From assembly GCA_913049815.1 (NCBI GenBank), contig CAJWYI010000011.1, forward strand, positions 1 to 34,559: a stretch of 34,559 nt of DNA. The letters run 5' to 3'. A program made the translations under genes and the position numbers. Positions 5,418-29,271 of the stretch are shown piece by piece (the stretch's first letter is position 1; every line of letters starts with the position of its first letter). The DNA comes from an uncultured Gammaproteobacteria bacterium. GTDB taxonomy: Bacteria; Pseudomonadota; Gammaproteobacteria; Pseudomonadales; Azotimanducaceae. The notes under the pieces are model-generated. The model saw nothing but the letters and a program-made list of their open reading frames with translations. It was not told the DNA's origin and did no database searches.

Positions 5418-6899
5418 TCAGTTGATCTGACCTGTATCGCGGACATAGCGCCGGTAATCAGACAACTGATCCTGATTGATCGCATCCGCCAATGGCCGTA
5501 AATAACTCTCCGTCAGTGAATCTGCCAGCGTTGCATGCTCGGACAACAGATCATCCCGCAACTCATCAGGATCGTTGGCACAGTCGAACAACTGAGCTGG
5601 TTTGTGATCGTCAACGCGGACCGTCAATTTGTACTCATCAGTAATTAACGTACTTTGGCCAAACAACTCACTGAGGACACACTCATGCCCCTTGTGTGCG
5701 ACCTGATCGACTGAATCATAGCCCGCAAAAGGCATCAGGGATCGACCCTCAACATTCTTCAGAGGCGACGCACCGGCGATATCGGTGATAGTCACTGGCA
5801 CATCAATCTGCTGGACCAGAGCGCGACTCTGCCAACCCTGTTCTTGCGCTAGGTGTCCACGAGCCGGACGCATGATGCACGGGACGTGTACCGACTGGTT
5901 GTAAAAATTCGCTTTGCTCCACAAGCCGTGATCACCCAGCATCTCACCGTGATCTGAAGTAAAGATGATCCAGGTATTGTCCAGTTGGTTGTCTGCCGAG
6001 AGTTGGTCAAGGATTCGTCCGATCCATGAATCGATCAACGTGATATTTGCATAGTAGTTCACCCGCCACTGTTGCCGCTGTTCAGTACTAGCTCCGATGA
6101 TCGCCTGACTTCCAGCAAGACGCGCTCGCACGATCGGTGACCCACCAGACGGAATTTCTGTAATACCTGGGTCAATGGTGTTCGCATCATATCGATCACG
6201 ATAGGCCTCCGGACCATCATAAGGATCATGGGGCCCGGTAAATTGCACCTGGAGATAAAAAGGATTGCTGTGATCGTGCTGCCCAAGCCACCGGACCGCT
6301 TCTCGCCCAACCCAGGCATCGATGTCCTCCCCCTCTGGCACCGGCGCCGGACTTTGATTCCACGGAGTGGGGTCGTTGCCACGATACGCCTCACGGACCC
6401 AATCCATGATGAAAGTACGGTGCGCATCGAGCAGTCCTTCGCGAGCAAGATGGTCGGTGTAGTGACAATCCATCCAGCCGGTCTCAATGGGATCGTTGAT
6501 TTCCAGACAATCGTCAAATCCCCATGCCTTCAACCGATCTTCCATGGCAGCGACATGCAGACCTACCTGACCTGCCGCACCGTGACGCCATAGGTGAGTC
6601 TTGCCAATAACAGCAGTTCGGTAGCCTTCATCGCGAATGTTGCGGACATGACTGGGTCCTTCTTCATGAGCGCCACTACGGTTGCTCCAGACACCACTTT
6701 GCCTTGGCAGCTGCCCATTCATCAGTGCCGCACGAGCCGGTACACAAAGTGGTGAATTCGATATGCAACGTGTGAATGTCACACCTTCGGAGGCCAGTCG
6801 GTCCAGACAAGGGGTTTGAACCTGCTCGTTGACCACCCCCAGGCAATCACCGCGCATCTGGTCTGCAAAGATGTACAGGATGTTGGGTCGTTTCTTCAC
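5418..6899 (-). CDS. Sulfatase (formylglycine type), choline-sulfatase / PMH-like architecture
   Basis: Cytosolic type I sulfatase or arylsulfatase/phosphonate monoester hydrolase relative. Visible elements in order: D13-Q14 (FADQMRGD) as metal site; C52-V-P-A-R56 as the formylglycine motif; K100-T-H102; H224 in GPHDPYD; D316-H317 (SDHGEMLGDHGLW) with K329. The DQ pair and the 'GDHGLWSK' block resemble choline sulfatase and phosphonate monoester hydrolases more than lysosomal-type sulfatases. The 493 residues start at GTG 6899, fixed by AGGAG 7 nt upstream. No signal peptide is present. It follows the ThDP enzyme by 24 nt and is surely co-transcribed with it, which suggests the desulfated product or a derivative feeds that enzyme. 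Substrate unknown. Confidence 0.9.
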   Translation of the reverse strand: MKKRPNILYIFADQMRGDCLGVVNEQVQTPCLDRLASEGVTFTRCISNSPLCVPARAALMNGQLPRQSGVWSNRSGAHEEGPSHVRNIRDEGYRTAVIGKTHLWRHGAAGQVGLHVAAMEDRLKAWGFDDCLEINDPIETGWMDCHYTDHLAREGLLDAHRTFIMDWVREAYRGNDPTPWNQSPAPVPEGEDIDAWVGREAVRWLGQHDHSNPFYLQVQFTGPHDPYDGPEAYRDRYDANTIDPGITEIPSGGSPIVRARLAGSQAIIGASTEQRQQWRVNYYANITLIDSWIGRILDQLSADNQLDNTWIIFTSDHGEMLGDHGLWSKANFYNQSVHVPCIMRPARGHLAQEQGWQSRALVQQIDVPVTITDIAGASPLKNVEGRSLMPFAGYDSVDQVAHKGHECVLSELFGQSTLITDEYKLTVRVDDHKPAQLFDCANDPDELRDDLLSEHATLADSLTESYLRPLADAINQDQLSDYRRYVRDTGQIN

Positions 6900-9188: not shown

Positions 9189-9929
9189 TCACCTATCTGA
9201 TTGTTCTGACAGTGGTCCAAGGAAGGTCTGCGTCGAGTGGCGCCACAGTCCTGACCTGAAAACTGGAAGATCGCAAAGGTCTGCGGGTACGCCCTTTGGA
9301 TTCACCCGGCTATTCAGCACCACCCTGATCCCGTCAGTCTGATTGATCCCTACCCGGTGCGCGCAGTGAGATGAGACAAAGACCGCCATACCCCGTTTTG
9401 GTATAATCTTAACCTCGCCGGGCAGTCGGCCATGATTGGGACCATCCGATGGAAAGCCCTCATAGAGATGCGAGCCTGGCAGGACGTATAGGCAGCCCTG
9501 TTCCGGTGCGTAATCACGTGTGTACACGAGCCGATTCAGGGTAAACCTGTTTGGATCGGTATCAGATGAGTCCTTGTGCCAACCCTGGCCTCCTGTTTTT
9601 GGGGTCGCGAATGCAAAACCATAAAGCGTCTCATACGTATCGCCGACGATCGATGCCGTAACGGCTTGCATCTCACGGTTTGAAAACAGCACTTGGAAAG
9701 GCGGAGAACGACTGATAGGCAGTGCCTTGAGGTGCACCTCGAATCGCCGTCGATACTCCGAACTCTCGCGGCCCGGCAGATCATCCCAGCGTGCCTGCCA
9801 GTCATCGACCAATGCATCTAGTTCTGCGACTTCCTGAAACCCGAAAAAATCGGGGCACACTACATAGCCGTCCCTTGCAAACGACTCTCGCAACTGAGCG
9901 TGCCCGACCAGGTTCCTCTGTTCCATCAT
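9189..9929 (-). CDS. Phytanoyl-CoA dioxygenase (PhyH) family protein
   Basis: Fe(II)/2-oxoglutarate-dependent oxygenase fold of 246 residues. The metal facial triad is H118-x-D120 (GWHKDSSD) with a distal His in SHCAHRVG (H188 or H191), and R202 (DGIRVVLNSR) can bind 2-oxoglutarate. CLYVLPGSHL is the usual strand before the second half of the cupin barrel. I start at the first ATG of the ATGATG pair (9929); the track start is an in-frame TTG with no Shine-Dalgarno, and none is obvious at 9929 either. It lies 78 nt after the next PhyH gene on the same strand. Many family members hydroxylate small metabolites rather than phytanoyl-CoA, so the substrate is open. Confidence 0.85.
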   Translation of the reverse strand: MMEQRNLVGHAQLRESFARDGYVVCPDFFGFQEVAELDALVDDWQARWDDLPGRESSEYRRRFEVHLKALPISRSPPFQVLFSNREMQAVTASIVGDTYETLYGFAFATPKTGGQGWHKDSSDTDPNRFTLNRLVYTRDYAPEQGCLYVLPGSHLYEGFPSDGPNHGRLPGEVKIIPKRGMAVFVSSHCAHRVGINQTDGIRVVLNSRVNPKGVPADLCDLPVFRSGLWRHSTQTFLGPLSEQSDR

Positions 9930-10007
9930 CGAAGCATGAGGACAACACGCACATCGGTCAAGAAGGGGGCACGCCGACTCGACTGGACGATCCAAAAAAC
10001 CTGACTG

Positions 10008-11057
10008 TCAATCTCCTGCCGCTTGGGTGCTCTCATCATCCTGTGACTGACGGGCCTTGTAGGCGGCACGGTGTCGTTCAAAGGACATTCGACCATCGTG
10101 CTCCAGATAATTGTACTTTGGCCGAATAGTGACTTTACCCGCGGCTGGCTCCTTATCGAAAAGACTACAGTAGGTCTCAACAGTGCCCCGACCGTGTCCC
10201 GTTCCGGGGGGCGCCTCCAGCGCACGAAGATCAGCAGTTCGATCGCTTTTACCAAAGGGAAACGGTCCATAGACATCCATCAGTCCGGCAAACCGCACGG
10301 TGTTTCTATCGAGCACTTCCTGGGTCACTGTCTCACGGTAAGGCTCTTGCGGCTGATATCTCGGGCGCATGTACTCGTACTGCAGCGCCATGCGAACGCC
10401 TGGCGTCTTGCGTGGATAAGAGCCGTGCCAGGTATGATTGCCCCAGACCACTGCTGATCCCGCCGGCGCATCAACCGCCACAGCACGGTCCGCCCAGTAT
10501 TTCGATTCGGGAGGACTGACCTGACGTCGCCACTTGTGGCTTCCGGGAAGAAATGACACCGCACCATCTTTCTTGTTGTAATCGGTCAGGAAGTAGTGGA
10601 CGTTCGCGTTCACGTTCAGACCAGGGTGCGCGTCAGGCGTCGGATCCAGATAATCGCCGTGAATTCCGGTTCGGGCCTCCCCCTGTCCTTTCACCCAACC
10701 ATTACAAAGACTCAGAATGCAGTTGGTACCAAGCAGGTACTGCGCCAGACCTAGGCCAGCCGGGTTGTACGCGTATTTTTCGAATCGCTCATCTTCCCAC
10801 ATCAGGAAACGCAGATTGTCGTTCACGTCATTCCAACGGTCTATATCTTCGGAAAAGTCACCAAACCGCCGCTGTACGACGCCCTCCAACGCATCTTTCA
10901 GTTCAATATGCCAGCCATCAGGTCCAATCTTTTCCGGAGGGATGATCGTGTACCCAAACGCTTCCAATTCGGCGATATTGGTTTCCAGTCCGAGCTGTTG
11001 AAGCTCCTGGTAGAGTGGACCCATAGACCCAGCGGTTTCCCAGTTTTCTATATTCAT
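10008..11057 (-). CDS. Phytanoyl-CoA dioxygenase (PhyH) family protein
   Basis: Fe(II)/2-oxoglutarate oxygenase, 349 residues. H133-G-D135 (GIHGDYLD) and distal H211 (HTWHGSYPRK) form the metal triad, and R222 (GVRMALQYEY) is the likely 2-oxoglutarate anchor. VSFLPGSHKW is the family strand. The start at ATG 11057 has GGAAG about 8 nt upstream; the extension to 11126 reads as promoter region. The C-terminal 100 residues (after MRPRYQP) extend past the minimal PhyH domain. It shares the PAGSAVVW...WH.xYPRKxPG pattern with the PhyH at 18667, so those two are closer to each other than to the other copies. It is divergent from the MDR/ACAD operon across a palindrome. Confidence 0.87.
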   Translation of the reverse strand: MNIENWETAGSMGPLYQELQQLGLETNIAELEAFGYTIIPPEKIGPDGWHIELKDALEGVVQRRFGDFSEDIDRWNDVNDNLRFLMWEDERFEKYAYNPAGLGLAQYLLGTNCILSLCNGWVKGQGEARTGIHGDYLDPTPDAHPGLNVNANVHYFLTDYNKKDGAVSFLPGSHKWRRQVSPPESKYWADRAVAVDAPAGSAVVWGNHTWHGSYPRKTPGVRMALQYEYMRPRYQPQEPYRETVTQEVLDRNTVRFAGLMDVYGPFPFGKSDRTADLRALEAPPGTGHGRGTVETYCSLFDKEPAAGKVTIRPKYNYLEHDGRMSFERHRAAYKARQSQDDESTQAAGD

Positions 11058-11095
11058 GGATGAATCTTCCGGTAAACTCCTAACATCTATAGTCA

Positions 11096-11113
11096 CACAT
11101 CTTACGTGATGTG
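11096..11113. promoter_or_regulatory. 18-bp palindrome in divergent promoter region, candidate operator
   Basis: CACATC-TTACGT-GATGTG, exact 6-bp arms. It lies 39-56 nt before the PhyH start (-) and 70-87 nt before the MDR start (+). On the minus strand a TATAGA hexamer lies just downstream of it, so a bound protein would occlude that promoter. Confidence 0.4.
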
Positions 11114-11182
11114 GTAACGAGACCAAATCTCACCGTTTTGCTATGCTCTGCGCCTTCTACTAGCGCTCCATAATGAGCTTCC

Positions 11183-14044: not shown

Positions 14045-15037
14045 TTAAAAGGCGACAACCCTGTCAATGAGCCAGTATGCAGAAATGGTGCCCACGAGAT
14101 ACCCCGCCGCGACGTGACCTTGAATGGGCAAGGCGGTATTCAGACGCCGTCCCAGTTCCGAGAACAGTCGGAGCAACAGGATAACGCCAAACGCAAACAT
14201 CACTTGTCCGATCTCGACCCCGACGTTGAACGCCACCAGCCCCGTGACAAGCTGTAGCTGCGGTAGCCCGATTTCAGAAAGTACCGCAGCAAATCCAAGT
14301 CCATGCAGCACGCCAAAGGAAGATGACACTGCAATCGGATGTCGCCAGGTCAGAGATTCAGAAGGTCCAAGTGCAAGTTCTCTGGCAAGGAACAGCACAG
14401 ACAGTGCGATGACAGCCTCAACCGGCCCAACTGGAAGTCTGACAAGTTCCAGAGCGGCCAATACCAACGTCACGGAATGTGCCAGTGTGAAGCCGGTAAT
14501 GGTGATCAGGATTCGCCGCCAATCCCCTGCAATCCAGATCAGACACAGAAGAAACAATAGATGGTCATAGCCGATCCATATATGTTCCATACCCAGCCAG
14601 GTGTATTGAAAGGCGACACCACCGGCCGTTTCAGGTGATGGAATATAGATACTGCGCTCCCCAGAACCATAGGCACGAGTAAATTCCTCACCACCTTGCA
14701 GGATCACTTTGATAACCGTCGGGTTGGCAACCTCGTAGAGAGGATAGACGACAGTCAGTTCCTCGCCATACACACTATCTGTGCATGCGACCTGAAATAC
14801 AGCGGCGAAACCCTCCCATTTACAGGATGTCGGGAACTGGAGTTCTGGCGTATTCTGAATAGCAATACGCGGGGGCAATCTCACTCGATAAGAGAATGCA
14901 GTACCCCTTGCTCCACCCTGCGCTAATTCCCGAATCTCCACATATAGTGGACGAAGATCATCCGCTGATAGCTGCACGCTTATCATGCACATGAGAACAC
15001 AACATTCCCACCGCCAGCGAGACACCGCCCTTTTCAT
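14045..15037 (-). CDS. HupE/UreJ family membrane protein
   Basis: 330 residues with a secretion signal (about 1-25, ending LSADD), a roughly 120-residue periplasmic domain with two cysteines, then about six to seven membrane segments. The HupE/UreJ_2 motifs are clear: H152-xxxx-D158-H159 (EHIWIGYDHLLFLL), H187 in FTLAHSVTL, FGVLHGLGFA (H245) and FNVGVEIGQ (E275). In HupE and UreJ such residues are tied to nickel or cobalt transport; in this longer form metal binding is likely but the cargo is unknown. The ATG overlaps the PPIase stop as ATGA. It is the last gene of the DUF3604-PPIase-HupE operon. Confidence 0.87.
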   Translation of the reverse strand: MKRAVSRWRWECCVLMCMISVQLSADDLRPLYVEIRELAQGGARGTAFSYRVRLPPRIAIQNTPELQFPTSCKWEGFAAVFQVACTDSVYGEELTVVYPLYEVANPTVIKVILQGGEEFTRAYGSGERSIYIPSPETAGGVAFQYTWLGMEHIWIGYDHLLFLLCLIWIAGDWRRILITITGFTLAHSVTLVLAALELVRLPVGPVEAVIALSVLFLARELALGPSESLTWRHPIAVSSSFGVLHGLGFAAVLSEIGLPQLQLVTGLVAFNVGVEIGQVMFAFGVILLLRLFSELGRRLNTALPIQGHVAAGYLVGTISAYWLIDRVVAF

Positions 15038-15918
15038 GGAATGAACTCAGCATCCAACAGCCCATCCAGTTCGATCTCGACGTCATACCGTGCCAATGCC
15101 CGTTCAAAAAACTGTTGGCGTTTCTGCTCGACGCGCTCAAGTATCAGGTCTTCACGTATACGCCCCGCAACCTCTTCGAGGGGCGGTACTCGAGCCGCTA
15201 TACGATCTCCGATCATCACCAGATGCTGTCCGTATTCCGATGCCACAGGGCCTTCCCATTGCTGGCGCTTGGACAGTTCAAGCACTGCGCCGGCGAATCC
15301 GCTACCGAAATGCGAGGCGACTTCGTCGTAGGTCTTTCCGACATAGTTTCGATGGTAAAGAAAATGATCGCCGTACGACGTTCCCAGATGAAAGGGTATT
15401 TGCTCTCTATTGAGAGACTCCTTTCTCTCCATTGCGATCTTTTTGGGGTCAGCATGTCGGTCACTGCTAAAGAAAACATGCGTAAACGTTATGCGGGGTG
15501 GTTCTCTGTATCGATCCTGGTGGATTTGGAAGTATCTGGTAATGTCAGCATTGGATACCACGATGCCATCATGAAAGGATGCTTGATTGATGTAGTCAAG
15601 TTGCGTAATTAAGCGGCGTTTGCTCGCGTAGTCGTTGGTATCGAGACCGATGGCTAGCGCTTCACGATAAAGCACTTCTTCCCGAACCATCTGTTCGACT
15701 AAGGAATCACGCTGCGAATCAGACATTTCAGAGGCCATTCGACGCGCGTTCACGAGATCCAGTCGAGGGTTACGATGCATCAAATAACGATCGAACGATC
15801 GCTCGTCAATCACGATACGCGATGACGTTGCCTCCGGTATCTCAGCGGAGATGAGCCCAAACCAGACGAACAGCGCGCCGCCCGTGATCAGGAAATACAG
15901 TAGCGGCTCCCGTGACAT
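15034..15918 (-). CDS. Membrane-anchored peptidyl-prolyl isomerase, parvulin (PpiC)-like
   Basis: A single N-terminal membrane segment (LLYFLITGGALFVWFGL) is preceded by the REPLL motif common to this group. It is followed by a SurA-N-like helical region and a degenerate parvulin domain (about residues 135-235: PRITFTHVFFSS ... HLVMIGDRI). The protein would face the periplasm and act as a folding helper. I use ATG 15918 (294 residues), which lies 5 nt after the DUF3604 stop; the track start at 15966 (310 residues) overlaps DUF3604 by 43 nt and is also possible, and neither has a good Shine-Dalgarno. The ATGA overlap with hupE and close spacing to DUF3604 imply a common job for all three. Confidence 0.82.
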   Translation of the reverse strand: MSREPLLYFLITGGALFVWFGLISAEIPEATSSRIVIDERSFDRYLMHRNPRLDLVNARRMASEMSDSQRDSLVEQMVREEVLYREALAIGLDTNDYASKRRLITQLDYINQASFHDGIVVSNADITRYFQIHQDRYREPPRITFTHVFFSSDRHADPKKIAMERKESLNREQIPFHLGTSYGDHFLYHRNYVGKTYDEVASHFGSGFAGAVLELSKRQQWEGPVASEYGQHLVMIGDRIAARVPPLEEVAGRIREDLILERVEQKRQQFFERALARYDVEIELDGLLDAEFIP

Positions 15919-15923
15919 TCGTT

Positions 15924-18497
15924 TCAACGTGGCGCGTAGCCCCCCACCCAGATCGGGCTGGACCATGCCATCGCATCGTTGGCCTGTCGCACACGTACAA
16001 AGTAATAGTCACCTTGCAAATCACCCGTGTCATTCACGACCAGACTGACATCACTTTCACCATCCGTGATGACTCGTCTAAGCGTGATCGTATCGTTATA
16101 GATGTCCAACGGAAATCCATGAGTCAACTTGCCGTCCCGCATGTCCCTGAGCTTGAGAGCGACACTGGCGGGTTTCGTAATGGCTGGTTGCCTGAATCGC
16201 GTTGGACTACCCCGTTCTGGGGCAGCCTTCAGCTGAAACACAATCTTTGCGGACCGGGCGATATTCTGCAGTTTAAGAACGATGGAACTCGCATCCCCAC
16301 GCGAACCTGTTGCAAAGTGAAGAGTGTTGGAGTCATCGTCATCTCGACGCAGTTCGTTGACTTCAGGATTGAAGAAATCGGTCGATCTAAACGCCTCAAT
16401 GTCCGCATCTGTGACGGTTAGCGTCCCTAGCCACCCTCGACTTCCACGCGCGTTGTCCTGTGGATGCATTGGAACTGAGTCACTCTCGAAACTGACCTGG
16501 ATCGTTTCGGCCTTATTGAGCTGACCTTCCTCGATCAACCGGTATTGACGCTCCCAGATTTCGACGTCGTTTTTGATCAGGGTAATGCTATCAATGGGCG
16601 CAGTACCTATCACGCGAACCTTGATCACACGATCCTGTAAAAACGGCGTCCGTTGCCCCATACCATGTCCGTTAAGTGTGACGTCCAGAATAATTCGATC
16701 TCCTGTCGTCGCGTAGGTCTGAATGTTCTTCATGGCGTCAAACAGTACATCCCTTTCCAATCTTTCAGCGAGCACCCCCGCAAGTCCACCCCGTTGAGAC
16801 ATGAAGCCCGCCCAGGTACTCGTGTATCCGGGTTGAGAGAGGTGATTGTCACTGGCTGCAATGAATCCAACCTGATGCCCCTGGCGGACATAGGCGCGCC
16901 CAAACCACTCGAACGTACCGTGCTGCGACATAATTTCAACAAGGCCCTGTAGATCAGGATCGCTCTGACGATAATCACCTGACTGGTGTGCATGGGGTAT
17001 CACCAGCACATCGTTGAAATCGTATGTGCTTTTGAGGCCCGTATAGAGTCGAGAGATTGTTGGATAATATTGGACCGGAACCCGACTTCGTTCACCGGTA
17101 TCCCGAAAAAGTACGTTATGGTGTCCCCCGTAACGATTCTGTTGGGTCCACTCATAGCCCAGGTACCCGATGAAGCGCCCTTCCTCCGAGTATTCGTTGA
17201 CCTTGTCTGTGAGCACCTGCCACTCGCTATCATCCATCCAGATGTCATGTTCAGAATGCATCACGAAATCAAGTCGGGCGTCTTCTTTGGCCCACCGCAT
17301 GAATCGGTCAGGTGTTCCAATACCCTCTGCAAACCCCGAGTGGCCGTGAGTGTCACCCCAGAACACTGGGCTCGCGTCCGCCGACACGTGAATTGGATTG
17401 CCGCGTCCCGTGATGGACCCATCGGTGGATTCGACGGTCAAATGATAGACACCTGCTGGCAATGCAATGTCCTCCAGAAGGTTAATTGCCTGCTCACCTG
17501 GCTCGGTTTGTCCGATGATCTTCCCATTCGCCCGGACGACAAAACCCGGAATTTTGCCTACAGCACGATTGTAGTAGGGGTCTCTTGCGCGGACGGAAAT
17601 ATCAAAAACTGCACCGGGTTTGACTACCGATGGTGCAAAGACATGAACGCCATCAATGGATTTACCATGCACGCGAAACGGAACGATCGGCAACGAGATG
17701 AGATCACCACTGCCATCAAAATCCACGTAGATTGGTAGTGGCAGGAAATCGGTTGCCGGTGCTCCCATTCTGAGTCCGCGACCACCACCCGTCGTATCTC
17801 CGTACGTCACGGTCACTGTATCTCCTGGCGTCAAACGCCCACGGTCAACCCTGAAAAAAAGTGAGGGTTGTGCACCGCGAAACCCACCGTGCATACCACT
17901 CAACGGTCTCTGTTCCGGCACAAAAGAGACGTCTGGGTTGCTCGTTGCAATGGTGATGAGGTTGTTGCCCTCTGGACGGGTGACCTGAAAGGCACCGTAT
18001 CCAGGCATGAAATGGCGTGCGACCAGCAACCCTCCCCCTGGCTCTACGGGTTTCGACCCGACCACCCACAGCTGTTGTAACGTGGCAAAGGTTCTCGCTT
18101 CGATGGACGTCGTATCACCTGTCAGTTGCCCCAGCGCATCCGGTTCTTCATCACCGAGTGTGAGTTCCCTGATGTAAAAGTCGAGCGCGGCTGCTTGTAC
18201 CGGTCTCGCAGGATCTGCGAGCCGCGGTCGAACAGAAGTCGTCGCGTTGACCGGAACATATCGACCATCGCGTGCGTAGGCATTCAGCCAGTCCCAGGCA
18301 ACCTGTGCGCGTGCCTGGTAGGTACGACGGTTCGTTGGGGTCTCCCTGACGTCCCGTTTGAGTGATTCCACCTTCTGGCGAAGATCCTTGTCAAGATAGT
18401 CTCCCTGTGCCGTCAGCGCATAGCCGCATACGAGCACCATATAAGACAGGCAGCGCAGGCTTCTTCTGGCCAGCTGGTTGGCTTCCTCTGATCTCAT
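15924..18497 (-). CDS. DUF3604 protein, PHP-like putative metal-dependent hydrolase, exported
   Basis: 857 residues. An N-terminal hydrophobic signal (SLRCLSYMVLVCGYALTA) suggests export. The first 370 residues are beta-rich. A PHP-like catalytic half follows with D382-x-H384-x-H386 (WGDTHGHSG), H414/H417 (MHSEHD), E449 (YLGYEW), H502/H504 (IPHAHQSG), H526 and D550/H552 (ASDNH), a full set of likely metal ligands. A C-terminal beta region completes it. DUF3604 has no firmly assigned reaction that I know of. The start ATG 18497 has AAGGA just upstream; the 56 extra track residues are promoter region. First gene of the operon with the PPIase and HupE/UreJ. Confidence 0.88.
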   Translation of the reverse strand: MRSEEANQLARRSLRCLSYMVLVCGYALTAQGDYLDKDLRQKVESLKRDVRETPTNRRTYQARAQVAWDWLNAYARDGRYVPVNATTSVRPRLADPARPVQAAALDFYIRELTLGDEEPDALGQLTGDTTSIEARTFATLQQLWVVGSKPVEPGGGLLVARHFMPGYGAFQVTRPEGNNLITIATSNPDVSFVPEQRPLSGMHGGFRGAQPSLFFRVDRGRLTPGDTVTVTYGDTTGGGRGLRMGAPATDFLPLPIYVDFDGSGDLISLPIVPFRVHGKSIDGVHVFAPSVVKPGAVFDISVRARDPYYNRAVGKIPGFVVRANGKIIGQTEPGEQAINLLEDIALPAGVYHLTVESTDGSITGRGNPIHVSADASPVFWGDTHGHSGFAEGIGTPDRFMRWAKEDARLDFVMHSEHDIWMDDSEWQVLTDKVNEYSEEGRFIGYLGYEWTQQNRYGGHHNVLFRDTGERSRVPVQYYPTISRLYTGLKSTYDFNDVLVIPHAHQSGDYRQSDPDLQGLVEIMSQHGTFEWFGRAYVRQGHQVGFIAASDNHLSQPGYTSTWAGFMSQRGGLAGVLAERLERDVLFDAMKNIQTYATTGDRIILDVTLNGHGMGQRTPFLQDRVIKVRVIGTAPIDSITLIKNDVEIWERQYRLIEEGQLNKAETIQVSFESDSVPMHPQDNARGSRGWLGTLTVTDADIEAFRSTDFFNPEVNELRRDDDDSNTLHFATGSRGDASSIVLKLQNIARSAKIVFQLKAAPERGSPTRFRQPAITKPASVALKLRDMRDGKLTHGFPLDIYNDTITLRRVITDGESDVSLVVNDTGDLQGDYYFVRVRQANDAMAWSSPIWVGGYAPR

Positions 18498-18518
18498 CGA
18501 TCCTTCCCCACGTGATCG

Positions 18519-18533
18519 TTGGCACTCTGCCAA
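18519..18533. promoter_or_regulatory. 15-bp palindrome upstream of DUF3604, candidate operator
   Basis: TTGGCA-CTC-TGCCAA, exact 6-bp arms with a 3-nt centre. It is 22-36 nt upstream of the DUF3604 start in a divergent promoter region, a position suited to a repressor site. Confidence 0.4.
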
Positions 18534-18552
18534 GACATTGTACACAAGCGAA

Positions 18553-18572
18553 AGGGTTCCTGACGTAACCCT
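18553..18572. promoter_or_regulatory. Second inverted repeat in the DUF3604/PhyH divergent region
   Basis: AGGGTT-CCTGACGT-AACCCT, exact 6-bp arms, 8-nt centre. It is unlike the TTGGCA palindrome 20 nt away, so it would be a different site or a hairpin. Function unknown. Confidence 0.3.
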
Positions 18573-18651
18573 ATCCTTGCTCGATATTTTTTCGTACAAC
18601 AAGCCTTTCGGATGTCCTATAGTGATATCAATGTTGGTAAGACGAGACACT

Positions 18652-18659
18652 AGGGGGAG
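18652..18659 (+). promoter_or_regulatory. Shine-Dalgarno AGGGGGAG deciding a TTG start
   Basis: Purine-rich site 7 nt before TTG 18667. The in-frame ATG at 18631 and the track start at 18478 have no such site. Confidence 0.7.
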
Positions 18660-18666
18660 TCGCACA

Positions 18667-19503
18667 TTGAGTGAGGTATTGGAGTCCGAGGCCTGGGGAT
18701 CAAGGCAACCTTTTGATCTCGATGACGAGGTAGGTCAGCGAATCAATGAATTGTCGCTCCAGCCAACGATTGACAGCCTGCAAGCAGAAGGATTCGGCTA
18801 CGTGATTCCCGCTGCTGACCCTGAGTTCAATGAACGTCTCAGGCACGTCATTATCGAACAGTGTCGGAAAAATGGTGGTGGCGGCGCCAACATGCTGCTC
18901 GACAAGGATCCTGTATTTGCAGAAGTCATCACAAATCCAAAACTACTTGCTGTCGCCGAAGTGATGTGCGGTAAAGGATTTATGATCTCGCAGATCGCAG
19001 CGAGCATCCGCCCCGAAGGCGCGGTGTCCATTGGGCTTCATGCGGATCAGAATTGGACTCCCGCGCCGTTTCCTGTTCATAACCAGCTGGTCACATTTTG
19101 TTGGGCGACTGACGATTACAACGAACATAACGGGTCAACAAAAATCATCCCAAAATCTCACTTGAAACGGCGCCATCCGACGCCTGAAGAGGTTCGTGAC
19201 GAACCAGGAGCCATTCCAACTGAGTGTCCGGCCGGATCTGCGGTCGTCTGGGATGGATCTGTATGGCACAGCAATTATCCTCGAAAAGCACCCGGTGAAC
19301 GTGTTGTACTGCACATCACTTATAGCCGCCTCGCACTGAGACCTGTCGAATGTTACGACGACCTCGACGATGAATGGCTGTCAGGTCAACCCGCGGTGAT
19401 GCGTACGCTCCTGGGTCGTGAAGATTTTCTCAATACAACCGGTGGCGCCTATGCCGGTGGTATGGAAAAGTTAGGCCGGACGTTTGTCTGGGCTAGAACA
19501 TAA
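18667..19503 (+). CDS. Phytanoyl-CoA dioxygenase (PhyH) family protein
   Basis: Fe(II)/2-oxoglutarate oxygenase, 278 residues from the TTG start. H125-A-D127 (GLHADQNW) and distal H201 (SVWHSNYPRK) are the iron ligands, and R212 (GERVVLHITYSR) is the likely 2-oxoglutarate anchor. STKIIPKSHL replaces the usual PGSH strand (K in place of G). The TTG choice follows the strong AGGGGGAG; ATG 18631 would add 12 residues. A small beta-rich protein gene follows after 41 nt on the same strand, probably co-transcribed. The gene is divergent from DUF3604. Substrate unknown; closest in the window to the copy at 10008. Confidence 0.85.
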   Translation: MSEVLESEAWGSRQPFDLDDEVGQRINELSLQPTIDSLQAEGFGYVIPAADPEFNERLRHVIIEQCRKNGGGGANMLLDKDPVFAEVITNPKLLAVAEVMCGKGFMISQIAASIRPEGAVSIGLHADQNWTPAPFPVHNQLVTFCWATDDYNEHNGSTKIIPKSHLKRRHPTPEEVRDEPGAIPTECPAGSAVVWDGSVWHSNYPRKAPGERVVLHITYSRLALRPVECYDDLDDEWLSGQPAVMRTLLGREDFLNTTGGAYAGGMEKLGRTFVWART

Positions 19504-20437: not shown

Positions 20438-21451
20438 ATGGCCCGAGCAGAGACATCTGACCAGGATCTGGAAGCCAGCCGAGAGGCAGCAAGGCGACAA
20501 CGGGAGGCACAGAAATTGAGCCAGACTTTTACAATGCCACAATTACCAACCGCCTCTGGGGAACAGACCGTCAGTCATGAACAAATCGGATTCTTCAAGG
20601 AGCATGGCTTCCTTATTCTCGAAAGACTCATCGACGAAGATGCGATCAACGCTGCCATGTCGCGGATCTGGGACTATGTAGAGGTCAGGATACCGGGTGC
20701 ATCAGAATCGTCTGTTCTACGTCGGGATGACCCGACCACCTGGCGTCAACCTGCATTTGGCAAACAGCCCCCTCAGCCCAAGACTGGTTATTACCAGGGG
20801 CGTGTGCCTGTCGAATATTTCGATCGAACGATCAAACTTCACGACATAGGTACCGAAGACTTCCTCCTCGATTTGCTCCCGCGACACCCATGTGTGGAAG
20901 CCATAGCGAAACGAATGCTTGGGCCAAATCTACGACCATCCAACGTGACACGCGGTGTCTATGCGCTCCTACCAGGAACGAAGGGCCGCTCTGCCAAGGG
21001 GTCCATGTTAGGACCTCATACTGACCAAGTGTGTCAGCAACTAAACACCTGCGCATATCTGAATGACGTAGAACCACGGGGAGGTGGATTTACCGTGTAT
21101 CCAGGAAGTCACAGGATCATGTTTCAGGCGCACGAAACAGAAGCGAACTTCTCACCGAATGCCCACTTTCGCGAGCGCATGCGTAAGGTCGTGAATACGA
21201 TTGAACCCTACGAACTGTGCGCGCCAAAAGGGAGCGTGATTTTCTGGCACGGACGCACCGTGCATTCGCCGGGAATACATCTTGGAGACAATATCCGTTG
21301 GGCGTTGTTCGGCGACTACAGTCTGGATCATCCGGTGCTTGACGACGATGAACATCGGGCCTGCGGTCAATATGAATGGTTTAAGAACACCCGACTGTTT
21401 CGCGAAGATCATTTCATTACCGAAGACATGTGGCGTGGATGGTCCATCTAA
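20438..21451 (+). CDS. Phytanoyl-CoA dioxygenase (PhyH) family protein
   Basis: Fe(II)/2-oxoglutarate oxygenase, 337 residues. H194-T-D196 (GPHTDQVC) and distal H276 (RTVHSPG) are the iron ligands, and R287 (NIRWALFGDYS) the likely 2-oxoglutarate anchor. GFTVYPGSHR is the standard strand. The first 40 residues are polar, rich in Arg/Glu/Ala and probably helical (about 8-28), ahead of the domain start at VSHEQIGFFKEHGF. AAAGG lies about 10 nt before the ATG. Divergent from the lipoprotein gene. It belongs to a different subfamily from the other three copies, with a longer insert between the N-terminal helix and the first His. Confidence 0.86.
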   Translation: MARAETSDQDLEASREAARRQREAQKLSQTFTMPQLPTASGEQTVSHEQIGFFKEHGFLILERLIDEDAINAAMSRIWDYVEVRIPGASESSVLRRDDPTTWRQPAFGKQPPQPKTGYYQGRVPVEYFDRTIKLHDIGTEDFLLDLLPRHPCVEAIAKRMLGPNLRPSNVTRGVYALLPGTKGRSAKGSMLGPHTDQVCQQLNTCAYLNDVEPRGGGFTVYPGSHRIMFQAHETEANFSPNAHFRERMRKVVNTIEPYELCAPKGSVIFWHGRTVHSPGIHLGDNIRWALFGDYSLDHPVLDDDEHRACGQYEWFKNTRLFREDHFITEDMWRGWSI

Positions 21452-24403: not shown

Positions 24404-24895
24404 TCAGCCACTTTTGCCGCTGAGAACTACGCGGGCATTAACCGTACCGGCAGATTCTTCCCGGTCAACCGACATCTGTTTCACACCAATACCGGATCTG
24501 GACTGGGAATCCAGCCATCGCATCAGATCGTTGAACGCAACATCATCGAACCAAACGCTGACACCGTCACTGCCCTCAGGTTGTAATCGTGTCGGCTTGA
24601 TGTCGAATTGACGGGTAGTTCGAGAAACCTGATTTAGTATTTGTTGACCGCTCAATGTTGAGGCCGTGCCGCCTAAATTTTGACGCGCAGTATCCATGGT
24701 GCTTTCCATACGAGCGACCAATGCGACGTAGCGATTCCGCTCTTCCAGTCGATTGCTATAGAACGACATTGCGGAGGTTAATGTGAAGTAACACAGCAAC
24801 ATCAGCATAAAAATGCCCAGTGCAACCAGAGCCGTGCGCTCATTGGGTTCGAGATTCCCAAAACCGCTTCTCAGGTTGACCCAGAGTTCTGTCAT
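24404..24895 (-). CDS. gspM: Type II secretion protein GspM
   Basis: Inner-membrane platform component, 163 residues. A short cytoplasmic N-terminus with WVNLRSGFGNLEPNERTAL is followed by one membrane segment (about 23-43), a coiled-coil-like stretch, and a periplasmic ferredoxin-like domain to the end. It dimerises with GspL in the family. The start overlaps the gspL stop (TGATG). This is the last gsp gene; no gspN follows. Confidence 0.88.
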   Translation of the reverse strand: MTELWVNLRSGFGNLEPNERTALVALGIFMLMLLCYFTLTSAMSFYSNRLEERNRYVALVARMESTMDTARQNLGGTASTLSGQQILNQVSRTTRQFDIKPTRLQPEGSDGVSVWFDDVAFNDLMRWLDSQSRSGIGVKQMSVDREESAGTVNARVVLSGKSG

Positions 24896-26160
24896 CAGCC
24901 ATCCACCCGAATCTTGATGTTGCCCTTCACCAGACCTTCATCCTGGCTCAGCGTACCAATGTCTGCCTGGAGGCCTGCCTGTGACAGCGTCCGTGCGAGT
25001 GTGACGAACTGTTCATTACGGGAAGCTTGGAGTTGCATAATCAGATCACCACGACTTGCATTAAAGTTCACACTGATCAATTGCATATCGCTGGCGGGCA
25101 CGTGTCGTGCTGCTTCGGAGAAGACTTTCATGAAACTTTGACCACTGTCCACCCGATTGCCTCTCAGATGGGCTTCCCACTTTGTGCCGATACCAGTGAC
25201 GCTTCGCGCGTTAGGGAACACGGATCGATACAGATCAACTGCCTCTGCCTCATGTTGGCTAGCTTTGATGTCCAGGTACGTACCCTGAACAAACAACAGC
25301 AAAATATTAAAGACGAACGTACACGCCGCGAGCACAGCCAGTGTCTGCCAGCGGACGCCACGCGTTGAGGGTGGTCGTTTGATCTTGTAGTCACCCTGGA
25401 GAAGATTAATCGCATTCGTATTGAAATTTCGACAGAGGTACTCGAACGCTGAGTATTCTGCCCTGTGGGTTTCAACGGCAAGGGATTCAGCCGCAAGCTG
25501 GCTCGCCAAAACCTCAATCGTATCGACATCGGACTTGGATGCTGTAATCGATACCGGACGTGCCTCATTGTCCACTGTCTCACCGACAGACGTCATCTCG
25601 TGGACGTCTGGCGACCCGAACAACATCGGCAGGAGCGCGACACTGGTTAGAACGCCGCCGTTATCCTCAGTACGGACCCAGCAACGGCCGCCGTGAACTA
25701 ATGCACTTGGCCAAGATGGCTGATGTAGCACGTCAGGTGTTAACGTGGAAATAGGTAACCCTGTTGTTGTTAACCAGTCAAATAGGTCTGACATCAACTC
25801 GCTGTCGACCACAGCGACGGCATATTCGGAGCCCCCTGTCGAGCTTGTAGCGAAATGGCAATGTTCGACTTCCGTTGCCAGGTCATCCTCTACCATATAG
25901 GGAATGGCTTGCGACACCTGACGTTGCTGACGACCTGGTACCGTCGCGCGCGTCAGCAGACACAACTCCGTTGACAACAGCACGTGAACCTCACCCGCAA
26001 TGGGTTGAAGGTTGCTCAGCTCATCCTGAAAGTCAGAACCATCGCCAGCACCTTTCGCACGCACAATACCTGTGGACTCGTCGAGCAGCAGCCATTGCAC
26101 TGCGTAGCAATCCAGAGATTCGGCAACTCGAGATAACCGGACATAGAGATTCTCAGGCAT
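24895..26160 (-). CDS. gspL: Type II secretion protein GspL
   Basis: 421 residues. The N-terminal cytoplasmic actin-like domain (about 1-260) docks GspE. A single membrane segment (about 275-295, LAVLAACTFVFNILLLFV) and a periplasmic C-terminal domain (about 330-421) follow. Position between K and M, the domain order, and the 8-nt overlap with gspK support the call. Sequence conservation of GspL is low in general, so the call leans on context and architecture. Confidence 0.9.
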   Translation of the reverse strand: MPENLYVRLSRVAESLDCYAVQWLLLDESTGIVRAKGAGDGSDFQDELSNLQPIAGEVHVLLSTELCLLTRATVPGRQQRQVSQAIPYMVEDDLATEVEHCHFATSSTGGSEYAVAVVDSELMSDLFDWLTTTGLPISTLTPDVLHQPSWPSALVHGGRCWVRTEDNGGVLTSVALLPMLFGSPDVHEMTSVGETVDNEARPVSITASKSDVDTIEVLASQLAAESLAVETHRAEYSAFEYLCRNFNTNAINLLQGDYKIKRPPSTRGVRWQTLAVLAACTFVFNILLLFVQGTYLDIKASQHEAEAVDLYRSVFPNARSVTGIGTKWEAHLRGNRVDSGQSFMKVFSEAARHVPASDMQLISVNFNASRGDLIMQLQASRNEQFVTLARTLSQAGLQADIGTLSQDEGLVKGNIKIRVDG

Positions 26161-27160
26161 CCCCTGCCTCAGTCAGAGTTAATGTGTCCTGATCGCCGTC
26201 TAACTTATCGTCATGAAGAACAGGAAAGAATTTGCGACTGTGGTCTCTGTAAATCACCTGCATGACACCTAAAGTCGGGTTCCTTTCAATGACGCTCGAA
26301 AGATACGCGTAGCGATCCAGATATCTTGCTCGGACCTGAACACGAAAATAGCGTGATTGTACACTAAGACCTGCCGGTACCACGCCAAGACCTGCTAACT
26401 CCGGTTGACTCAAAAATGACGCGATCGATGTATAACCGCCTTCAGCATCGCGAGCGAGCACCATCGACTCAGCCTGTGCCAACGTAAGACCAGGTGAGAG
26501 TGACTGAAGCACACTCGCAGGCGCGGTATTGACATTAATAAACGCAAAATTGATGGGCAGCGCGGTCAAACCACCATTTAAAAGTTCAAAAACTTCTGGG
26601 GTCATATCCAGTAAGAGCCTAAGCTCGCTGATATCTGTAATCGGACCATCTGCGGGTCTGAACGGTCTCGCCAGAGCGAGATAGTCATATTCTTCAGCAC
26701 CTAAACCGCGGGTTGCATTATCCGAATCCACCCAATCGACAATCCTGTCCTGAAACGCCGAGTCAACCTGAAGCTCATCGATATAGGTTCGCAGCCATCG
26801 TGAAGTGCGCGAATTCTGACGTTCTGTGACTGCATTCACGTTGATGAGTCCCTGTAAGTCTATGATCTGCAGAGACACTTCACCATTTTTAAATTCAAAA
26901 CTGAGATTAGGATTCGCCCACGGCTCTCCCAGATGGTCCCAAGACGCTGACTCTGCACTCCGCATATCCTCAGCTAGGATCTGACGAGCAAGTTCCTCCC
27001 CACCGAGGGCATACTCTCTTGCCTGCATGTTGATGCTCTGCGTGCCAGCACGACTGGCTGACAGACTCTGCGTTGTAATCATCCGAACAGCGAGCACTGT
27101 ACCCACAACCACGACCAACAGGACGGAGATTAGGGCAATACCTTTGCATCGAGTCCTCAC
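26153..27160 (-). CDS. gspK: Type II secretion minor pseudopilin GspK
   Basis: 335 residues, the large pseudopilin expected at the pseudopilus tip. A basic leader ending in KG is cut before IALISVLLVVVVG. It lacks the Glu at +5, as is usual for GspK. A large globular domain includes INVNAV and the later FINVNTAPASVLQSL, which resemble the helix-hairpin-like repeats of the family. ATGA overlap with gspJ. Confidence 0.92.
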   Translation of the reverse strand: MRTRCKGIALISVLLVVVVGTVLAVRMITTQSLSASRAGTQSINMQAREYALGGEELARQILAEDMRSAESASWDHLGEPWANPNLSFEFKNGEVSLQIIDLQGLINVNAVTERQNSRTSRWLRTYIDELQVDSAFQDRIVDWVDSDNATRGLGAEEYDYLALARPFRPADGPITDISELRLLLDMTPEVFELLNGGLTALPINFAFINVNTAPASVLQSLSPGLTLAQAESMVLARDAEGGYTSIASFLSQPELAGLGVVPAGLSVQSRYFRVQVRARYLDRYAYLSSVIERNPTLGVMQVIYRDHSRKFFPVLHDDKLDGDQDTLTLTEAGDA

Positions 27161-27831
27161 TGAATCACCGGACCATCTGATGGTTCTTCCGCGTTCCCAT
27201 CCGCCCCCTCACCTGTGGACCAGAACTCCAGGCCCTGTCTTATCGCTGTCAAAGGATAAAGCGCCTGTATCGAGCCTACGTGCGCCAGCGTGAGGTCAAT
27301 TTGCAGTAACCGAGGTTGATCGCCATCCTCCTGTAGCTCATTCGAAGGCCATTGATCCAGGACCCGATTGTCTGTTCGCAATGAAACCCTGAAGTCCTGA
27401 ACGTCGGTAAACAGGACCTGCGACTTTGGTTCTGTATTCTGTGCTCGATCCAGAACCAGCCAGAAGTGTCGAATCAATTCGTCATCACTATTGATCGAAT
27501 AGGCAACACGTTGCAGAGAACTGCGAGGCAGCTGGGCAGGATTGCTCCATCCGGACCGTGTCAGTTCGACCGTATGAGGACCGAAATTGACCATGAGCGC
27601 TGGTAAACTATCTCCATACTGATCTTTGATGTTGCGCAATGTCAGCTGCGTAAAATCCCTTTCCATAGCCGCCAGCGCACGGCTCATGATGGTAACTTCG
27701 TCGCCAACATGCCGTGACGTATCCTCAGCGTTAAGGACTGTTCGTAATACGGCGTTGGAACCGAGACCAATCAGCGCAAATATGCTGATCGCAATCAGTA
27801 CCTCTAGCAAGGTAAATCCTCGATAGCGCAT
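27157..27831 (-). CDS. gspJ: Type II secretion minor pseudopilin GspJ
   Basis: 224 residues. The prepilin site RG|FTLLEVLIA begins almost at the N-terminus (leader MRYRG), with Glu at +5, then a hydrophobic helix and a beta-rich globular domain. It forms a tip complex with GspI and GspK in the family. Start overlaps the gspI stop (TGATG). The C-terminal tail is acidic (GEGADGNAEEPSDG). Confidence 0.92.
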   Translation of the reverse strand: MRYRGFTLLEVLIAISIFALIGLGSNAVLRTVLNAEDTSRHVGDEVTIMSRALAAMERDFTQLTLRNIKDQYGDSLPALMVNFGPHTVELTRSGWSNPAQLPRSSLQRVAYSINSDDELIRHFWLVLDRAQNTEPKSQVLFTDVQDFRVSLRTDNRVLDQWPSNELQEDGDQPRLLQIDLTLAHVGSIQALYPLTAIRQGLEFWSTGEGADGNAEEPSDGPVIQ

Positions 27832-28241
27832 CAGTAACGACCTAGAAATCCTGTTAACTCAGCGACTACACTATCGGGATCAGCCTCCCTGGCGACCTGG
27901 ACATTGATCCGACGCATCAGCTCGTTCTCCGTCGATTCTGTTGTGACGATAAGTTCCCAATCTCTGCCTGCCATTGTGACGCTCTCACGATCGACGCCAG
28001 GACCGCGGAAGGTACTGTCCTGGCGGGGTGCTGCACGAAGCTCACTCAGTCGATTCCTGGCGATCAATTCGGCAATGCCACGCTCTCGGAGTGTATCGGT
28101 TTGAAGTAACGAAAAGCTGGCACTCTTTACGAGCGCCGCCGAGACGACTGCAAACACCGCCAATGCGATCATGACCTCGACAAGGGTAAATCCACTATTA
28201 CGACAGGAACATCTTGCTGATCGTCTACGGTTCCCCTTCAT
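27831..28241 (-). CDS. gspI: Type II secretion minor pseudopilin GspI
   Basis: 136 residues from ATG 28241. The leader MKGNRRRSARCSCRNSG is basic, and peptidase GspO would cut before FTLVEVMIALAVF. The rest is a short globular domain with LIARNRLSELR, common in GspI. The 11 extra track residues overlap gspH; the chosen start overlaps it by only 17 nt. Confidence 0.9.
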   Translation of the reverse strand: MKGNRRRSARCSCRNSGFTLVEVMIALAVFAVVSAALVKSASFSLLQTDTLRERGIAELIARNRLSELRAAPRQDSTFRGPGVDRESVTMAGRDWELIVTTESTENELMRRINVQVAREADPDSVVAELTGFLGRY

Positions 28242-28770
28242 TGCCGTTATCCCACTCAAAACCGCCGTAACCATCGGCAGTCAATATCCTGCTACCCAGA
28301 TCGTCTTTCAGACGCAACTCAAAGGGCGTGACTTCTCCACTGGAAAGAATCAGGACGGCCGGGGGCTCGTCTTCGCCGATCGTCAATGGCACATCTTCGA
28401 TTCGCAATGACAGTAATTGCCCCTCCTCCAACTGCCTTGGACGAAACGGGCGCTCATCTAACGTAATCCACTGTTGTCCATCATCATCGTAACGAACGAA
28501 CTCGTACCCGAATCCCTCGGTACGGAATCCCAACTCTACCGATGCTGACACCGCCTCGTCATGGGCGAGTGTCATCAGCGTTTTCAGACGTCGCATCTCC
28601 GTATCGAAAGTATCTGTCACCACAAGCGCCGGAATACTGGACACAACAATGCCCGTCATGACTGAGACGATAAAAAGAACAACCAGTATCTCAATGAGTG
28701 TGAAGCCTCGAGCCCAAGGCCGCAACTTGGACGAAGAATCGTTACAGATCCGAGAAACGAATGTCCGCAT
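28225..28770 (-). CDS. gspH: Type II secretion minor pseudopilin GspH
   Basis: 181 residues from ATG 28770 (AAGGTG upstream). A long leader ends at ARG|FTLIEILVVLFIVSVM, Glu at +5. The globular domain shows the GspH/FimT-like pattern (LMTLAHDEAVSASVELGFR). It overlaps the end of gspG by 29 nt. The track start at 28803 would add a segment inside gspG and is less likely. Confidence 0.88.
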   Translation of the reverse strand: MRTFVSRICNDSSSKLRPWARGFTLIEILVVLFIVSVMTGIVVSSIPALVVTDTFDTEMRRLKTLMTLAHDEAVSASVELGFRTEGFGYEFVRYDDDGQQWITLDERPFRPRQLEEGQLLSLRIEDVPLTIGEDEPPAVLILSSGEVTPFELRLKDDLGSRILTADGYGGFEWDNGNEGEP

Positions 28771-29173
28771 CCACACCTTCACCACCTTCCCGGCGATCAG
28801 CACCGAAGGAAATCAACTCGAAGTGCCTCGGACCTTCACTGATGTAAAGGAACGGCTCTCCCCAGGGGTCTTCAGGAAGCTTGTTCAGATAGGGTTCCGG
28901 TCCCCATTTACGCGGTTCAGGATAACCAGAAGGTTCACTGACGAGCGCATCCAAACTCTGTTCCGAGCTGGGATACGTACTGTTGTCTATTCGATAGAAA
29001 TCGAGAGATGCCGCCACATTTTGCATTTGAATTTTCGCCGCTTCCACTCTGGCTTCTTCGGGTTTACCAATGATATTGGGTACGATGATGGCTCCAAGAA
29101 TTCCCAGAATCACCACAACGACCATGACCTCGATCAGGGTAAAGCCGCGTTGGACGATCTGATTGTTTACCAT
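28742..29173 (-). CDS. gspG: Type II secretion major pseudopilin GspG
   Basis: 143 residues from ATG 29173. Leader MVNNQIVQRG is cut before FTLIEVMVVVVILGILGA. The rest matches GspG well: VPNIIGKPEEARVEAAK, then YRIDNSTYPSSEQSLDALV, then YLNKLPEDPWGEPFLY, with the acidic C-terminal loop that binds calcium in the family. It forms the pseudopilus shaft. A 98-nt gap separates it from gspF, the largest in the gsp run, so a separate translation signal (GGAG) serves it. Confidence 0.95.
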   Translation of the reverse strand: MVNNQIVQRGFTLIEVMVVVVILGILGAIIVPNIIGKPEEARVEAAKIQMQNVAASLDFYRIDNSTYPSSEQSLDALVSEPSGYPEPRKWGPEPYLNKLPEDPWGEPFLYISEGPRHFELISFGADRREGGEGVDADIRFSDL

Positions 29174-29271
29174 GTTCTTCTGCTCCACATCGGATGAGGA
29201 TTCGACGTCTGATCGTCTCTCAGTTTTCCTGACCACATTGTAACAGGGTACAGACGCATGGAGATGTCTCC

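Follow-up and report, generated by a model that had tools for sequence, protein, structure and literature searches.

A membrane parvulin and a HupE/UreJ-2 protein form a conserved pair that may mature exported PHP-type hydrolases

A membrane-anchored parvulin and a HupE/UreJ-2 membrane protein are encoded together as a conserved unit. The regular partner of this pair is the canonical DUF3604 protein of ~640 amino acids. Because the two genes travel together in many bacteria, and nearly always in genomes that encode a DUF3604-type hydrolase, their products probably fold and metal-load the hydrolase outside the cytoplasm. We put a probability of roughly 0.55 on this reading, in which the pair would constitute a two-protein envelope module for maturation of an exported PHP-fold hydrolase. 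The parvulin would provide folding and HupE/UreJ-2 would supply metal. The operon from which we worked lies in a 34,559-nucleotide stretch of DNA from an uncultured gammaproteobacterium of the family Azotimanducaceae, here called the window.

Three genes are arranged on the minus strand of the window. First is a DUF3604 or CehA/McbA-like exported PHP-type hydrolase of the long form (15924..18497, minus strand, 857 amino acids), with its ATG at 18497 and a Sec-type N-terminus comprising a signal helix. The hydrolase TGA (15924-15926) and a 5-nucleotide gap (together 15919..15926) precede the ATG of the second gene at 15918. This encodes a membrane-anchored parvulin-type foldase resembling SurA, PrsA and PEB4 (15034..15918, minus strand). 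The full open reading frame spans 15034-15966; we place the start at 15918, where the N-terminus MSREPLLYF is conserved in loci L010 and L013. One transmembrane segment occupies residues 6-24, and the parvulin (Rotamase_2) domain (15169..15558, minus strand) corresponds to the Pfam stretch 137-266 of the 310-residue reading. The parvulin stop codon overlaps the start of the third gene in the motif ATGA (15034..15037, minus strand); both junctions were read from the sequence. The third product is the HupE/UreJ-2 protein (14045..15037, minus strand; PF13795). Its extracytoplasmic N-terminal domain (14618..14965, minus strand) was delimited by alignment and is the counterpart of the "anglerase" domain (PMC12537917). 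Its transmembrane core (14162..14605, minus strand; Pfam stretch 145-292) carries membrane His, Asp and Glu residues.

A sequence-only reading of this DNA had described three tightly coupled genes for envelope proteins. The 5-nucleotide gap and ATGA overlap agree with the first part of this description. The second part is also consistent with our predictions: a Sec-type N-terminus for the hydrolase, one transmembrane segment for the parvulin, and five strong transmembrane segments by hydropathy plus an exported domain for HupE/UreJ-2. A divergent PhyH gene forms the upstream boundary of the operon. On the 3' side, 565 bp without a listed same-strand gene extend to the end of a convergent acyl-CoA dehydrogenase gene at 13479. 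A scan of the locus for consensus promoters and terminators gave no informative signal. Sulfatase and PhyH genes are abundant in the window.

The window hydrolase scores 57 bits against PF12228, above the Pfam gathering cut-off of 20.4, with only two partial stretches matched. Against NF038032, which describes the CehA and McbA carbamate hydrolases (PMC8292978), it scores 55.8 bits, below the cut-off of 80. It is thus homologous to these enzymes, sharing a PHP-like His-rich active site, and is not filed as CehA/McbA. The ligand region (16842..17360, minus strand; residues 380-552) has the pattern HxH, HD, E, HH, HxH, E, H, DxH. The 13 putative PHP-type ligands are H384, H386, H417, D418, E449, H459, H460, H502, H504, E521, H526, D550 and H552. 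All are invariant in 46 relatives from Gammaproteobacteria, Acidobacteriota, Verrucomicrobiota, Planctomycetota and other groups, which bears out the complete ligand set noticed earlier. The window hydrolase is probably a metal-dependent enzyme. AlphaFold2 modelled it with a mean pLDDT of 92. When the full model was compared with the PDB using Foldseek, the matches listed were to beta-sandwiches only, the best query TM-score was below 0.2, and no PHP fold was among them. A sequence-profile search for solved relatives of the hydrolase or of HupE found none.

Members in OM182 and MED-G24 metagenome-assembled genomes share 82-85% protein identity with the window hydrolase, and its host appears to be a marine gammaproteobacterium close to these. 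Profile scores clearly set the 857-residue CehA/McbA-like form apart, as a subfamily, from canonical DUF3604. For the L070/L255 relative of the window hydrolase, the long profile gave 1218 bits and the canonical profile 90. Full-length canonical proteins scored 626-762 bits on the canonical profile and 63-119 on the long profile. At least three canonical DUF3604 genes are found elsewhere in the window's host genome.

We then turn to the two putative helpers. The window parvulin scores 33.3 bits against PF13145 (Rotamase_2; cut-off 27) and the profile of its family matches the structures of PEB4, HP0175, SurA and PrsA. Catalytic residue H248 is present in 52 of 54 family members, while H163 is replaced by Gln in 22 of the 54; the window protein has both. 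At locus L038 a homologue lacks the parvulin domain altogether. In the sequence-only reading, the prolyl isomerase could fold or metallate an exported partner. Isomerase activity as the key function of this protein is doubtful, given the Gln substitutions and the L038 protein.

HupE/UreJ-2 of the window is a confident member of PF13795 (142.9 bits; cut-off 24.5), the sole family found; a Pfam search gave no match to TerC (PF03741). Eight polar membrane residues (H152, D158, H159, T184, H187, H245, N271 and E275) are invariant across 56 members, in keeping with the metal-handling His/Asp motifs that had been suggested. At the mature N-terminus the window has Asp, where 37 of 56 relatives have His. 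Comparison by hhalign with just one PF04955 member returned a probability of 28% (E = 6e-4) over 114 columns. An AlphaFold2 model built from four sequences had a pLDDT of 54 and was not used; no metal path was visible in it.

These features bear on the possibility that the two proteins serve folding alone. They would then assist large exported enzymes, either as a foldase in the membrane or as an accessory to the translocon, and the membrane His and Asp residues would have a structural role or serve some other membrane chemistry. The match to SurA, PrsA and PEB4 fits such a role. So does L038, where the parvulin domain is lost and the N-terminal chaperone part kept, as does the frequent Gln at the first catalytic His. 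However, the eight invariant membrane residues of HupE are of a type that metal-handling proteins use. Furthermore, the partners found repeatedly beside the pair come from families of metal-dependent hydrolases and do not represent exported proteins at large. We consider a role restricted to folding unlikely.

To define the conserved unit we used three sets of genomes: an order-level sample of 195, a phylum-level sample of 299 Pseudomonadota, and 43 that encode the long hydrolase. In the order sample, 60 of the 66 strong parvulin matches adjoin HupE/UreJ-2. Thresholds in the phylum sample were >240 bits for the parvulin (next match 88) and >320 bits for HupE (next match 231). Under these, the 20 parvulin loci were the same as the 20 HupE loci. 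Among the long-hydrolase genomes, 38 of 40 HupE loci adjoin the parvulin, including those of Acidobacteriota, a planctomycete and an alphaproteobacterium. An alpha/beta hydrolase, a protein without a Pfam match and a TetR gene recur beside some pair loci. We rejected these as functional partners, since they look like synteny only. A 670-residue reading frame beside the pair at L173 was likewise discarded as a third partner; its composition and want of a family match mark it as spurious. The neighbours at L230 are HupE_UreJ and spermidine-synthase-like genes, and were not accepted as another client.

The pair and DUF3604 occur in the same genomes. In the order sample, 51 genomes have both, 4 the pair only, 7 DUF3604 only and 133 neither (p ~3e-34). 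Corresponding numbers in the phylum sample are 17, 0, 4 and 278 (p ~3e-24), or 15, 0, 4 and 135 when counted by genus (p ~2e-17). These genome counts are only partly corrected for phylogeny. DUF3604 is thus present in 17 of 17 pair genomes of the phylum sample, against 21 of 299 genomes overall. A survey of this kind had been suggested as a check on the three-family grouping, and its outcome is strongly positive. The grouping does recur. What did not hold is the trio itself as the conserved unit, since the pair is that unit and its usual partner is canonical DUF3604, not the window's subfamily.

The genes are also neighbours. In the phylum sample, a DUF3604-type gene directly adjoins the pair at 19 of 20 loci: an intact canonical gene at 17, a fragment at one (L275) and the long form in the window. 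The exception is G435, with DUF3604 41 kb away. In the order sample, 32 of 60 pair loci have a DUF3604-type gene within 5 kb, most commonly in the order DUF3604-parvulin-HupE, and 26 have no DUF3604 in that range. By our own estimate, assuming a handful of DUF3604 copies per 4 Mb, adjacency would arise by chance in about one case in 60. Adjacency of the three genes is far beyond chance. Pair-adjacent DUF3604 proteins are spread over many subclades of the family tree, where well supported branches force at least 13 changes of label. Two rows at the root, L313 and L323, are probably wrong-frame translations and leave this conclusion unaffected. Because the adjacent proteins are so scattered, we conclude that the association was made or broken many times. 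Canonical DUF3604 proteins adjacent to the pair have an invariant His/Asp/Glu set, including HxH and DxH motifs. Most carry Sec signals and some carry lipoprotein signals. Up to ~30 DUF3604 paralogues, as first-look candidates, accompany one pair per genome.

A shared lifestyle could account for some of these patterns. Here, a common catabolic niche, marine or host-associated, would retain both pair and DUF3604, and the two would have no direct functional contact. The many pair genomes with multicopy DUF3604 can be read in this way, as can the richness of the window in sulfatase and PhyH genes. Such a niche would not predict direct adjacency and overlapping genes, in several gene orders and in more than ten families. 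Nor would it predict adjacency even where DUF3604 is single-copy in the genome, or the fused operon relic of G223. This genome has neither a parvulin nor an intact DUF3604. One 333-residue reading frame in it (L273:8040-9038) starts like a DUF3604, with its lipoprotein signal and the first of the PHP motifs, and continues in frame as the C-terminal third of HupE. The fusion matches the product expected if a DUF3604-parvulin-HupE operon had collapsed through an internal deletion, and we read it as the relic of such an event. We regard shared lifestyle as the least probable of the explanations considered.

Four genomes have the pair and no DUF3604. In two of these, G184 (L224) and G162 (L227), four genes in tandem immediately adjoin the pair, coding for proteins of ~450-510 amino acids that start with Sec-type signals. 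All four proteins at L224 match the arginase family, and a gene for a urea-type ABC binding protein follows HupE. The L227 proteins were assigned to the arginase family by length, position and a GGDH motif in three of the four. Enzymes of the arginase family normally bind two metal ions. Therefore, two unrelated folds of exported metallohydrolase are found with the same pair, and these exceptions point towards a role in metal supply.

This finding is relevant to metal scavenging. Here, a secreted hydrolase would break an organic metal complex or free a ligand, HupE/UreJ-2 would import the metal, and the parvulin would only fold envelope proteins. HupE/UreJ proteins are reported nickel permeases, and it has been proposed that their N-terminal domains "fish" for metal to be taken up (PMC12537917). 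Ester and carbamate hydrolases are found in the superfamily of the long enzyme (PMC8292978). A single substrate pathway fits poorly, however, with one pair accompanying many DUF3604 paralogues, and with at least two DUF3604 subfamilies and an arginase family sharing the slot. In addition, no metal-responsive regulator or metallophore genes recur among the identified neighbours of the pair. Scavenging has perhaps one chance in six of being correct, which makes it the strongest of the alternatives.

The long hydrolase of the window was rejected as the regular partner of the pair, since most loci encoding this form have no adjoining pair and the pair tracks the canonical protein. Among the 43 long-hydrolase genomes, canonical DUF3604 and the pair are both present in 33 and both missing in 8, with one discordant genome in each direction (p ~5e-7). 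Hence, the link of the pair is to canonical DUF3604, and the long form can be retained without the pair. The eight genomes with neither lack the parvulin too, so the long enzyme does not depend strictly on the pair. The window, L010 and L013 have the full trio with the long hydrolase. In this lineage the long CehA-like enzyme fills the hydrolase slot of the operon, which it may have taken over. Three other lineages have the long hydrolase beside one helper only. At L070 it is followed by HupE with an ATGA overlap, and of the two parvulins in that genome, one adjoins a canonical DUF3604. At L038 it is separated by 2 nucleotides from the parvulin homologue that lacks its parvulin domain. At L046, in a planctomycete, the HupE gene precedes it.

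From the operon, conservation, co-occurrence, ligand sets and export signals that we observed, we infer that the pair acts on the hydrolase. In the maturation model the hydrolase would cross the inner membrane unfolded, via Sec. The tethered parvulin would catch and fold it at the membrane face. HupE/UreJ-2, a polytopic protein that combines the invariant membrane His, Asp and Glu with an exported domain of a metal-binding type, would provide the active-site metal, whether by exporting it, concentrating it locally or handing it over directly. A single pair could act in trans on several hydrolases of a genome, most often canonical DUF3604 proteins. Several observations count against maturation. 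HupE-type proteins are known or proposed metal uptake permeases, and transport may run inward. The window HupE has Asp in place of the metal-binding N-terminal His. The long enzyme occurs in eight genomes that lack the pair. Finally, there are the 26 of 60 order-level pair loci without DUF3604 within 5 kb.

The nearest described parallel is in Bacillus subtilis. There, exoenzymes depend for their metal on the TerC proteins MeeF and MeeY, which co-purify with SecDF as well as with the parvulin PrsA, and Mn is implicated (PMC10550928). The likeness is a polytopic membrane metal protein together with a membrane-bound parvulin foldase. TerC differs in belonging to another family (PF03741), and MeeF and MeeY are not described as encoded with their clients in the passages of PMC10550928 considered here. 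The "anglerase" N-terminal domains of HupE/UreJ-2 proteins have nM affinity for Cu and Ni, the N-terminal His being central, and uptake is proposed (PMC12537917). They share the PF13795 membrane core and exported N-terminal domain with the pair, in which 37 of 56 members have that His. The differences are the Asp of the window and that neither a prolyl isomerase nor DUF3604 is mentioned as a neighbour in the main text of PMC12537917. Canonical DUF3604 (PF12228) operons have the same DUF3604-parvulin-HupE order and are the usual form of the module, with a hydrolase of ~640 rather than 857 amino acids. Another functional parallel is NifM, a parvulin-domain protein dedicated to one metalloenzyme class, which differs in having another client and no known membrane partner. 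NifM is not a membrane protein. It is of the PpiC type and matures the nitrogenase Fe protein (PMC12691677). Our search covered the open-access literature. We found no description of the DUF3604/parvulin/HupE association and nothing relevant linking HupE or UreJ with a prolyl isomerase. DUF3604 is hardly mentioned in that literature.

More broadly, HupE/UreJ-2 and the membrane parvulin could be a widespread module, not described before, that matures polynuclear metallohydrolases exported through Sec. Clients would be of DUF3604/PHP type and in some cases arginase-type, often encoded with the pair, and the module would be a Gram-negative counterpart of TerC/PrsA metalation. We hold this wider proposal tentatively, at a little under even odds. 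How Sec-exported enzymes are loaded with metal outside the cytoplasm is largely an open question in Gram-negative bacteria. The module makes this question testable, with genes, clients and pair-lacking lineages now named. It also gives a first lead to the role of DUF3604, which has no assigned function and is multicopy in some marine bacteria. DUF3604 enzymes expressed without the pair may be inactive.

The window carries a run of type II secretion genes (GspE, F, G, H, I, J, K, L and M; 24404-31973), for which folded periplasmic enzymes could be candidate cargo. Also present are two sulfatase genes (111-1718 and 5418-6899) and four PhyH (phytanoyl-CoA-dioxygenase-like) genes (9189-9995, 10008-11126, 18478-19503 and 20438-21451). 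One of these PhyH genes is divergent to the DUF3604-parvulin-HupE operon.

In several other gammaproteobacteria, a gene encoding a HIT-like protein, with an HxHxH motif, takes the place of the parvulin-HupE pair and lies closely downstream of the long DUF3604 gene (loci L032:5224-5685, L033:12415-12951 and L044:9502-10056). Altered forms of the module also occur. At L273:8040-9038, a DUF3604 lipoprotein N-terminus is fused in frame to a HupE C-terminus; this open reading frame is a relic of a collapsed operon. A parvulin-family homologue at L038:12487-13038 has lost the parvulin domain and retains only the flanking chaperone-like parts. The same genome has full-length pair loci at other sites (L247 and L265).

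Some pair loci encode a secreted beta-helix (NosD-like) lipoprotein and a weakly cytochrome-like protein 3' of HupE (L246:6513-7778; L236, L241, L245 and L251 are similar). In two genomes without DUF3604, four tandem exported arginase-family genes precede the pair (L224:8432-16115 and L227:7999-15572, the latter assigned by length, position and a GGDH motif in three of the four genes). At L224, a gene for a urea-type ABC binding protein follows the cluster. This arrangement of arginase-family genes and pair is unusual and merits separate study.
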